Source: Streptomyces sp. NBC_01268 (GTDB taxonomy: Bacteria; Actinomycetota; Actinomycetes; Streptomycetales; Streptomycetaceae). Taken from it: a stretch of 64,000 bases of DNA. Shown here one piece after another: positions 16,471 through 18,635 of this stretch. Made by a program: the position numbers and the translations under genes. The notes beneath the pieces were generated by a model that was not told the origin of the DNA, made no database searches, and saw only the letters and a program-made list of their open reading frames with translations. How positions within the stretch are numbered: position 1 is the first letter of the stretch; the number at the start of each line of letters is the position of its first letter. The DNA is taken from contig NZ_CP108454.1 of NCBI RefSeq assembly GCF_036240795.1, positions 3,906,001 through 3,970,000 on the forward strand, given 5' to 3'.

Positions 16471-16875
16471 ATGGCGACTGACCCGAGGAACCCCGGCGAC
16501 TCGTATCTCAGCTTCTGGCGCGAGTACCACATGAGCACCCTGACCACCCCCCGGCCGAACGGCACCCCGCACGTCGTGGCGGTGGGCGTCACGTACGACC
16601 CCGAGAACGGGCTGGCGCGGGTGATCACCAACAAGCACAGCCGCAAGGTCGCGAACGTCCTGGCGGCGGGCTCGGACGGCGCGCGGGTGGCCGTCTGCCA
16701 GGTCGACAAGGGGCGCTGGGCCACCCTGGAGGGCATCGCCAGGATCCGCACCGAGGCGGAGGTCGTCGCGGACGCGGTGGACCGCTACGCGGAGCGCTAC
16801 GGCCGGGTGCCGGCCCCGAACCCGGACCGGGTGGTCATCGAGATCACGCTGACCCGCGCGATGGGCCGGGCCTAG
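16471..16875 (+). CDS. PPOX-class (split beta-barrel) FMN/F420-binding protein
   Basis: 134 residues, ATG start, divergent from clpB. It is the compact split-barrel flavoprotein fold: YLSFWREYHMSTLTTPRPNGTPHVVAVGVTYDPE, then NKHSRKVANVLA with the basic phosphate-binding region, and ATLEGIARIRTEAEVVADAVDRY. Proteins of this actinobacterial group are usually annotated as F420-dependent TIGR03618-type reductases or pyridoxamine phosphate oxidase homologues. The cofactor cannot be settled by sight. The gene ends at the hairpin 16901-16935. Confidence 0.82.
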   Translation: MATDPRNPGDSYLSFWREYHMSTLTTPRPNGTPHVVAVGVTYDPENGLARVITNKHSRKVANVLAAGSDGARVAVCQVDKGRWATLEGIARIRTEAEVVADAVDRYAERYGRVPAPNPDRVVIEITLTRAMGRA

Positions 16876-16982: not shown

Positions 16983-17303
16983 TCAGGCACTGCGGGGGGT
17001 GGCGGTGATGGTCTCGGGTTCGACCAGCTGGTGGTCCCGCTGGTCGAGATTGACGAAGATCATGCCGTACCGGATGGCACAGCGGACGGGCTGCGGAGCG
17101 CCACGGGGCCGGCGCAGACACCGGTAGGCACGGACGTCCTCGTCCTGCTCCCTGGCGACCACGATCGGTTCTCCGAAGAGGGTGACCATCAACGAGTCGC
17201 CACGGTGGGGGATGGCCGTGACGAGATCGACGAAGTGCCACCCGGACCGGTAGGCCGAAGCCATCTCCCGCCGGAAGGACCGGTCGTCCGGAGGCACGGT
17301 CAT
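16983..17303 (-). CDS. Rieske-fold-like protein with apparently lost histidine ligands
   Basis: 106 residues. The start ATG overlaps the stop of the peptide gene (ATGA), implying translational coupling. The middle resembles the N-terminal Rieske domain of ring-hydroxylating oxygenases: GWHFVDLVTAI, then LFGEPIVVAREQDEDVRAYR, and the terminal RYGMIFVNLDQRD that follows such domains. The expected C-x-H and C-x2-H ligands appear as C-L-R (in YRCLRRPRG) and C-A-I-R (in VRCAIRYG), 13 residues apart, so both histidines seem to be arginine. A classical Rieske 2Fe-2S cluster is then unlikely. The family assignment rests on pattern recognition only; no catalytic domain follows. Confidence 0.6.
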   Translation of the reverse strand: MTVPPDDRSFRREMASAYRSGWHFVDLVTAIPHRGDSLMVTLFGEPIVVAREQDEDVRAYRCLRRPRGAPQPVRCAIRYGMIFVNLDQRDHQLVEPETITATPRSA

Positions 17304-17521
17304 GCGTCCGCGCCCGCCGGGCTGGAGTCCCATACCGGGTCGAGCTGACCGACCGGGGCGAAGTCCCAGACGGGGTCAATCGGTGCCGCGACGACCTTGG
17401 CGGGCGTGCTGTCCCACACCGGGTCGCTGACGGCCAGCGCTCCTACTGCCGCCGCCCCAATGAAGACGGAAGCAAGTATCGAGCGAAGCAGTTTCGTGGA
17501 CATGAGCGGCTTCGACCTCAC
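17300..17521 (-). CDS. Short secreted peptide with three DPVWD repeats
   Basis: 73 residues from a GTG at 17521 (GAGAGG ten bases upstream) or 67 from the ATG at 17503. A basic start (MSTKLLRSIL) and hydrophobic stretch ending VGALA form a signal peptide with a plausible signal-peptidase-I site. The mature part of about 43 residues carries DPVWDSTP, DPVWDFAP and DPVWDSSP separated by eight and four residues. It contains no cysteine. It could be an exported signal, a RiPP precursor or a small wall-associated peptide. The stop overlaps the next start, and the LuxR-type regulator is divergent, so the three genes look like one unit. I do not recognise the family. Confidence 0.72.
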   Translation of the reverse strand: MRSKPLMSTKLLRSILASVFIGAAAVGALAVSDPVWDSTPAKVVAAPIDPVWDFAPVGQLDPVWDSSPAGADA

Positions 17522-17630
17522 TTGATGGTTTCCTCTCCCCCGCGTACAAGACGATGGCTCAGTCTTTGCGCTGGCACCACCGGGGCAATGCATCATGTTC
17601 CTGAAATACAGGATCCTGGGGGGTGTGCAT
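17522..17630. promoter_or_regulatory. Divergent promoter region between LuxR-type gene and DPVWD peptide gene
   Basis: Roughly 110 bases drive both directions. It contains the small inverted repeat CCTGAAATACAGG (about 17600-17612), close to the regulator start, as a possible operator. GGGGGG at 17618-17623 is the ribosome site of the regulator. Confidence 0.45.
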
Positions 17631-18635
17631 ATGCCGCAGAAACTCACAGAACCGACACATCCTCACGGGCATGTCGACCTCTGTGCAGCCGGAACGGACT
17701 TGTACGCAAGTGCGTTGCGGATCGGGCGAATAACCAGGAGTGAGGCAGAAGCCGCACCCTGCCTCATGGACCTCGACCTGCTGCACCCGGATCCGGACGA
17801 TCCGTCCTGGCTGCGGCCCGTCCCGCCGTCCGCCGCTCTCGCCCGGCTCGTCCAGCCGCTGGAGCGTGAGATCCAGGACCGGCGCGCCCTGGCCATGGGC
17901 CTCTCCAGCACGTTCGAGCCTTTCATGGCGATCAGCGCCCAGGACCCCTCGACCACCCACGCCATCACCGTGCTCGAAGGCCTCCACCGCATCGACGCCG
18001 TCCTCGGCCGGGCCACCGCCGAGTGCTCCCAGGAGCTCCTCACCGTCCAACCGGGCGGCGGACGCAGCGAACACACCCTCAACACCGCCCTCAACCGCAT
18101 CCAGCCGCTCCTCGACCGCGGCGTGCGGGTGCGCACCCTCTACCAGCACACCGCCCGCCACAGCCCCGGCATGCAGGTCTACCTCGAACAGGCCGGCATG
18201 GACCGCCTCCAGGTCCGCACCCTGGAGGAGAGCATCGAGCGGCTCATCATCATCGACCGCTCCGTCGCCCTCATCCCCGCCCGCCAGGACCGCCAGGTCG
18301 CCCTGGAACTGCGCCACCCCGGCCTCGTGGAGTACCTGGCGACCGTCTTCGAGCAGTCCTGGGCCCGCGCCACCCCCTTCGGCGAGCAGGTCCCCAACGC
18401 GCAGCGCAGGGACGGCATCAGCGGCGTCCAGCACTCCATCGCCAAGCTGCTCGTCGAGGGCCACGTCGACGAGGCCATCGCCCGCCGCCTCGGCATGAAC
18501 GTACGCACCTGCCGCGCCCACATCGCCAAACTGGCCGCCACCCTCGGCAGCGGCAGCCGCGCCCAGCTGGGCTTCCTCATCGCCCAGTCCGGCATCCTCG
18601 ACGAGCCCGACCCGGGCCCCGAGCAGAACGACTGA
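17631..18635 (+). CDS. LuxR-type transcriptional regulator with TrmB/PLD-like sensor region
   Basis: 334 residues from the ATG at 17631 (GGGGGG seven bases upstream); an ATG at 17595 has no such site. Residues about 105-255 (VLEGLHRIDAVLGRATAECSQ, then ALNRIQPLLDRGVRVRTLYQH and ERLIIIDRSVALIPA) resemble the phospholipase-D-like effector domain of TrmB and related regulators. The C-terminal part (SIAKLLVEGHVDEAIARRLG, RTCRAHIAKLAATLG) is a LuxR/GerE helix-turn-helix. There is no receiver domain. The divergent arrangement suggests that it controls the DPVWD peptide and Rieske-like genes, and the sensor might detect the peptide or a derivative. The last two statements are inference. Confidence 0.85.
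   Translation: MPQKLTEPTHPHGHVDLCAAGTDLYASALRIGRITRSEAEAAPCLMDLDLLHPDPDDPSWLRPVPPSAALARLVQPLEREIQDRRALAMGLSSTFEPFMAISAQDPSTTHAITVLEGLHRIDAVLGRATAECSQELLTVQPGGGRSEHTLNTALNRIQPLLDRGVRVRTLYQHTARHSPGMQVYLEQAGMDRLQVRTLEESIERLIIIDRSVALIPARQDRQVALELRHPGLVEYLATVFEQSWARATPFGEQVPNAQRRDGISGVQHSIAKLLVEGHVDEAIARRLGMNVRTCRAHIAKLAATLGSGSRAQLGFLIAQSGILDEPDPGPEQND

Follow-up and report, generated by a model that had tools for sequence, protein, structure and literature searches.

Among described signaling systems, the closest to the locus reported here are the RRNPP systems of the Firmicutes, which include Rap-Phr, Rgg-SHP, and PlcR-PapR, diversify at the level of strains, and signal through tetratricopeptide-repeat receptors. 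PMC10075063 defines the family by two genes, one for a propeptide and one for its receptor. In LuxR/LuxI systems, the receptor joins an AHL-binding N-terminal domain to a C-terminal LuxR-type DNA-binding domain, and the TrmB-type regulators of archaea carry a sugar-binding domain (PDB title). Within Streptomyces, the 655 Da signal of S. coelicolor imported by BldK is presumed, in PMC9640686, to be an extracellular peptide taken up by this oligopeptide transporter. The locus described below resembles the RRNPP systems in that a precursor for export, from which a short linear peptide would derive, is encoded next to a regulator that is presumably cytoplasmic, but it differs from them in carrying up to 12 core copies per precursor, in belonging to Actinobacteria, and in the model of its regulator, which joins a PLD-fold sensor to a LuxR-type helix-turn-helix. 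We propose, with a probability of about 0.8, that it encodes a clade-specific peptide pheromone of 4–5 residues that is sensed by a cytoplasmic PLD-LuxR receptor. This reading is drawn because the core word differs between species and two regulator residues predict one of its letters.

The locus lies in a stretch of 64,000 nucleotides from Streptomyces sp. NBC_01268 (hereafter the window), in a segment between clpB and the hspR-dnaJ-grpE-dnaK genes (names from ORF reading). The initial annotation had described here a LuxR-type regulator, an exported peptide with three DPVWD repeats, and a Rieske-like protein devoid of His ligands, and all three genes are found where it placed them. The regulator gene (17631..18635, plus strand) encodes 334 aa, and the peptide precursor gene (17300..17503, minus strand; 67 aa) is divergent from it. 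The Rieske-like partner gene (16983..17303, minus strand; 106 aa) starts with an ATG that overlaps the peptide stop codon as ATGA. Between clpB and the partner gene, there is also a PNPOx-type oxidoreductase gene (16471-16875, plus strand), whose product matches Pfam PNPOx_N (E 3.4e-14) and TIGR03618 (E 2.9e-21, just under its cut-off).

The partner was matched in 327 of 392 Streptomyces genomes (E 1e-6), with five matches weaker than 1e-20. In ten genomes without the partner, the orthologous regulator was also absent, the best matches there being distant homologues that are at most 41% identical. A scan of named genomes gave 500 loci, 80 of which were kept. In total, 269 partner loci were parsed, 221 of them unique, as some genomes are represented twice. 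Excluded before the count were L157, an additional copy of the partner gene in G023 that is 68% identical and has no adjacent precursor, a match to a true oxygenase (L158), two loci where no partner is expected (L159, L160), two 10-base placeholders, and 16 more loci without a partner. In every one of the 269 parsed loci, an exported precursor with 1–12 copies of [DEN]xxW adjoins the partner, which argues that the repeats are not due to chance. The pairing of peptide and partner, which the initial annotation had suggested looking for elsewhere, is therefore present in other genomes.

The window precursor begins with a presumed Sec-type signal sequence (approximately residues 1–25; 17429..17503, minus strand), read from the sequence by composition only, and continues with three copies of the core DPVWD at 17411..17425, 17363..17377, and 17327..17341, all on the minus strand. 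The ORF translation contains DPVWDSTP, DPVWDFAP, and DPVWDSSP, exactly as first reported. Across the 221 unique loci, the precursor stop codon falls between 59 bases before and 7 bases after the partner start and most commonly overlaps it (+1 in 135/221), and the core occurs in 40 versions across species. Copies within one precursor are nearly identical at core positions 1–4 (0.99, 1.00, 0.98, and 1.00 for copy pairs from the 192 multi-copy precursors, with positions 1 and 4 partly fixed by the search pattern), less so at position 5 (0.74), and variable in the flanks (0.22–0.51). Between species, core positions 2 and 3 agree in only 25% (0.25). The precursor C-terminus lies at W+1 in 38/221 loci, at W+2 in one, and at W in none, while the precursors of three loci in other genera (L352, L363, L349) end at W. 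Since the copies are near-identical against variable flanks, and since precursors end at W+1, the unit is delimited to 4–5 residues. We note that Asn replaces Asp/Glu at core position 1 in five loci (L233, L240, L244, L245, and L262; NTSW, NTVW, NSSW, and NTQW). Averaged over pairs of sequences, identity amounts to 0.84 in the partner and, in the regulator, to 0.87 in the DNA-binding domain and 0.63 in the sensor.

The model of the regulator combines a PLD-fold sensor domain (residues 108–253; 17952..18389, plus strand) with a C-terminal LuxR-type helix-turn-helix domain (residues 260–324; 18408..18602, plus strand), in line with the original description of a LuxR-type protein with a TrmB/PLD-like sensor. 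The Pfam GerE match is below its cut-off (E 0.0068). Neither a TPR family nor an AHL-binding family is among the Pfam matches of the regulator; it shares with the LuxR of AHL systems the C-terminal DNA-binding domain but not the N-terminal ligand domain. Compared with the LuxR-family quorum-sensing receptors RhlR and VqmA, the ligand domain is modelled as PLD-fold and the signal would be a ribosomal peptide. In contrast to TrmB-type regulators, the helix-turn-helix is LuxR-type and C-terminal, and the proposed ligand is a peptide encoded in the genome. The catalytic motif of phospholipase D is HxKxxxxD; direct reading of the 334 residues finds no HxK. No signal sequence is visible by eye, and the regulator is presumably cytoplasmic.

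Within Streptomyces, single residues of the sensor follow the letter at core position 2. In 217 regulators, residue 136 pairs Leu with Pro (82/83), Met with Ser (58/58), and Val with Thr, Ile, Leu, or Val (75/75), and residue 157 pairs Asp with Ser/Thr (88/88), Gly with Ile/Leu (32/33), and Ser with Val (10/10). The triplet of residues 136, 157, and 208 is cleaner still, with MDC going with Ser in 42/42, VDC with Thr in 24/24, and LVV with Pro in 51/51. The window regulator has Leu at 136 (18036..18038), Ile at 157 (18099..18101), and Ile at 208 (18252..18254), all on the plus strand, and its core has the Pro that goes with Leu136. An acidic residue would suit a hydroxyl side chain, and Gly would give room for branched residues.

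Adjacent genes may drift together, and the coupling could then reflect nothing but shared ancestry; the peptide and regulator genes are indeed adjacent in every parsed locus. In simulations, the motif letter at core positions 1–3 was evolved along trees with the number of changes matched (216 taxa, 182 columns, 300 runs per tree). Normalised mutual information with core position 2 is 0.678 for residue 136 and 0.595 for residue 157. The simulated maximum over the 182 columns is 0.262 on a species-proxy tree built from the partner and non-sensor codons; on the tree of the sensor itself, from which the top columns were removed, it reaches 0.433, so both residues exceed all 300 simulations even there. 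For core positions 1 and 3, the best columns pass the family-wide 95% level on the species-proxy tree but not on the stricter sensor tree, and their coupling is thus within reach of the sensor gene tree alone. Position 2 itself changes 40 times on the species-proxy tree and 27 times on the sensor tree, and the pairings of Met/Asp with Ser and of Val/Asp with Thr return in homologues from other loci and genera, as described below. Linkage as the whole explanation is for these reasons very improbable.

A rule for position 2 was fixed before 23 further Streptomyces loci were fetched. It was correct for 22 of the 23, with one no-call; four of these regulators had been seen before, and on the 19 new ones it made 18 calls, all correct (18/18), and the one no-call. 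Two loci (L155 and L156, in G047 and G050) have three and four tandem regulators and a diverged partner (43–46% identical), and their precursors are single-copy and end in DPTWG or DPAWD. Their five extra regulators all have Val157; three have Leu136, which fits the Pro expected from the rule, and two have Phe136, which is outside it. Taken together, the sequence comparison strongly supports recognition of the peptide by the regulator, and one of the two options first offered for this locus, a processed signal that the regulator senses, gains its strength from this residue-level coupling.

In the mechanism that we propose, the precursor would be exported by the Sec route and cut into identical short [D/E/N]-x-x-W peptides, usually with one further residue (DPVWD in the window). 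The released peptides of 4–5 residues would accumulate outside the cell and then re-enter it, probably by an oligopeptide permease, a route that would resemble that of the BldK-imported signal in both the extracellular peptide and its transporter. Inside, the PLD-fold sensor of the divergently encoded regulator would bind the peptide directly, with residues 136, 157, and 208 as the putative site that reads peptide position 2, and each species or clade would consequently have its own channel. The peptide-bound regulator may then alter transcription through its LuxR-type helix-turn-helix, at least from the shared intergenic region and possibly of other genes. A variant of this scheme keeps the peptide in the cell: unprocessed precursor or cytosolic fragments would bind the regulator before export, as feedback or as a gauge of secretion status. 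The coupling suggests recognition wherever it takes place, and a regulator that is presumably cytoplasmic, with no visible signal sequence, would suit such a gauge. On the other hand, near-identical tandem copies and ends at W or W+1 fit the release of a short unit, and the strong variation between species fits a cell-to-cell channel better; we judge the intracellular variant unlikely.

In the divergent intergenic region, an inverted repeat GTTCCTG-N5/6-CAGGA (17597..17613, plus strand) is a conserved candidate operator that is prominent in the consensus built from an alignment of 221 such regions, although G047 and G050 carry changes in its right half. Its position in the divergent promoter region suggests autoregulation of the pheromone–receptor pair. 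The exact sequence GCATCATGTTCCTG occurs once in the window's genome (G000), at the window locus. The pattern is not enriched genome-wide (6 sites in G000 vs 14 for a reversed control), so no regulon is in sight through this repeat and none can be named.

Similar pairs also occur at other loci and outside Streptomyces. We judged 39 pairs, in 102 loci with distant regulator homologues (sets of 14, 30, and 58; 31–75% identity to the closest of seven profile rows), in which the homologue has its own exported DxxW peptide, usually divergently encoded; the remaining 63 loci gave no accepted peptide. The peptide filters differed among these sets, and the pairs are related by descent. With the stricter filter, an exported DxxW ORF was found in 3/30 loci, against 0.17% of 600 shuffles and 0/30 downstream regions. 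A looser filter on 20 chosen locus entries, a set that had no shuffle control, added pairs. In the last 58 loci, such an ORF was found in 27, against 3.9% of 232 shuffles, and three were dropped as false: a helix-turn-helix protein (L397), an Arg-rich ORF with the motif near its start (L407), and an enzyme-like fragment (L429). From the looser filter, the ORFs of L353, L357, and L364 were rejected as parts of the regulator gene, and those of L154 and L371 and the extra ORFs of L347, L356, and L372 were also judged false. Another ORF of L353, the second ORF of L352, and L362, where residue 136 is gapped, were left out. Beside the regulator homologue of L362, we observe a divergent ORF of 37 aa (from the last likely Met) that ends in ENMNWD and has no clear signal sequence.

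Applied blind to the 27 ORFs of the last 58 loci, the rule gave 14 right, 6 wrong, and 7 no-calls. After curation, with the three false ORFs dropped and L432, whose repeated core is DWGW, counted against it, the rule is correct in 12/18 calls. Val136/Asp157 predicted Thr in 9/10 and Met136/Asp157 predicted Ser in 2/2, so the Asp157 parts hold in 11/12, whereas the Leu136-Pro part failed on these distant homologues (1/6; failures at L381, L382, L400, L421, and L431). In the full set of 39 pairs, Ser accompanies Met136/Asp157 in 8/8 (leaving out L371, a Met/Asp regulator with only an EPRW ORF that was judged false), Thr accompanies Val136/Asp157 in 13/14, and Ser accompanies Asp157 with any other residue 136 in 6/7. 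Ser or Thr stands at position 2 in 27/29 pairs with Asp157 vs 2/10 without it (Fisher p 2.9e-5, which is only a guide because the pairs are related by descent). Asp157 thus dominates outside Streptomyces, since Val/Asp-Thr and Met/Asp-Ser held and Leu136-Pro did so in only one of six. The rule is also broken outside the blind test at L140 (Leu/Asp, Ser), L141 (Val/Ser, Pro; a weak ORF), and L363 (Leu/Asn, Val).

The window's genome itself holds a second pair, L345 at approximately 6.84 Mb, with the core DTSWG and a Val/Asp regulator. An accepted peptide was found for only 2 of its 14 regulator homologues; the other 12 have no convincing peptide, and three ORFs beside them that pass a loosened pattern (EKLW, DEFW, NFMW) were read as membrane proteins. 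In other genera of the family, two loci (L449 and L450) array four or five regulators beside one precursor whose cores have an aromatic residue at position 2 (DWKW/DYGW/DYAW; DFNWT at the C-terminus). In a different family, L355 and L359 encode exported peptides with DSSWGCGGC beside Met/Asp-type receptors, and the cysteines may mark a modified form.

The Rieske-like partner appears less central. By sequence, its Rieske assignment is weak: the Pfam Rieske match is below the cut-off (E 0.01, 16.2 bits; cut-off 20.3), as is the NCBIfam match to glycine-betaine monooxygenase (E 3.5e-7, 29 bits; cut-off 670). Among the 50 structural matches listed for the predicted model, the titles are those of Rieske-type oxygenases, with one title uninformative, and the best E is 1.1e-3, with none at E ≤0.001. 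The replacement of the C-x-H and C-x2-H ligands by C-L-R and C-A-I-R was correctly described: the window partner reads RCLRRPRG...RCAIRYG, and Arg at both His positions (R64, R78) is invariant in 47 aligned sequences. In S. venezuelae, the partner is SVEN_3427. In G047 and G050, the first ligand motif is deleted. The partner matches the N-terminal Rieske region of Rieske oxygenase alpha subunits and then stops, without the His ligands. Searches covering 393 genomes from the class and 150 from the family, with up to 12 and 32 candidates scored per genome, respectively, gave no full-length partner outside Streptomyces. The weak matches there lie in frames of 365–816 codons, and nearly all align to only about the N-terminal two-thirds of the partner, the pattern expected of true Rieske oxygenases. 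One weak match, in G781, spans residues 15–89 in a frame of 389. Within the window's genome, the only match is the window's own. The partner is probably a non-catalytic, Streptomyces-specific accessory that is translationally coupled to the precursor, and it looks ancillary. The three-gene system first proposed calls for revision, as a full-length partner was seen in Streptomyces alone and the peptide–receptor pairs found elsewhere do without it.

The other option first offered, maturation of a repeated-core RiPP, bears on the same gene. The peptide would then be a RiPP, or else a small antimicrobial, whose pathway the regulator would control. A short secreted precursor with repeated cores, the translational coupling of a pseudo-Rieske gene to it, and the cysteines of some distant peptides would all suit such a product. 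Against this, no RiPP-modifying enzyme was recognised by eye among the ORFs of 14–22 kb, the partner is without cluster ligands and was not found outside Streptomyces, the unit is only 4–5 residues, and a coupling to single regulator residues is expected of a receptor. We find no support for this option and hold it to be improbable.

We return to the pheromone–receptor reading and its place among known systems. As in the RRNPP definition, an exported propeptide gene adjoins the receptor gene (the signal sequence being judged by composition), and our best reading, by analogy, is that the window system would work like RRNPP systems while being unrelated to them. In line with the expectation that no system with this combination had been described, we found no such peptide–receptor system in the titles and abstract openings of open-access papers, and within this scope the pair looks previously unrecognised. 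As modelled, the receptor does not fit the RRNPP family, and the locus is no AHL system either.

By gene order, SCO3664-SCO3666 of S. coelicolor lie between clpB and hspR and would be a candidate counterpart of the window locus. PMC6585502 counts transposon insertions in SCO3664 (termed a "regulator") among those with a more than 50-fold increase in actinorhodin, and PMC3282765 assigns SCO3665 (327 aa) and SCO3666 (394 aa) to the LuxR family. A broader proposal, for which we see the chances as evenly balanced, is that Streptomyces and their relatives share a "language" of linear Trp peptides of 4–5 residues, in which a PLD-LuxR receptor reads each channel by the 136/157 code and which has more than one channel at least in the window's genome, and that development or antibiotic production is controlled in a species-specific manner by the conserved channel adjacent to the dnaK operon. 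PMC10075063 contrasts Actinobacteria, whose signals are typically small molecules made by enzymes, with Firmicutes, which rely on oligopeptides. That picture would change if the main antibiotic producers had a peptide channel that spans the genus, is specific to each clade, and has a receptor code that can be read. If the proposal is true, signal–receptor co-evolution would be testable by swapping two residues, and cheap synthetic peptides could switch a conserved regulator in many strains.
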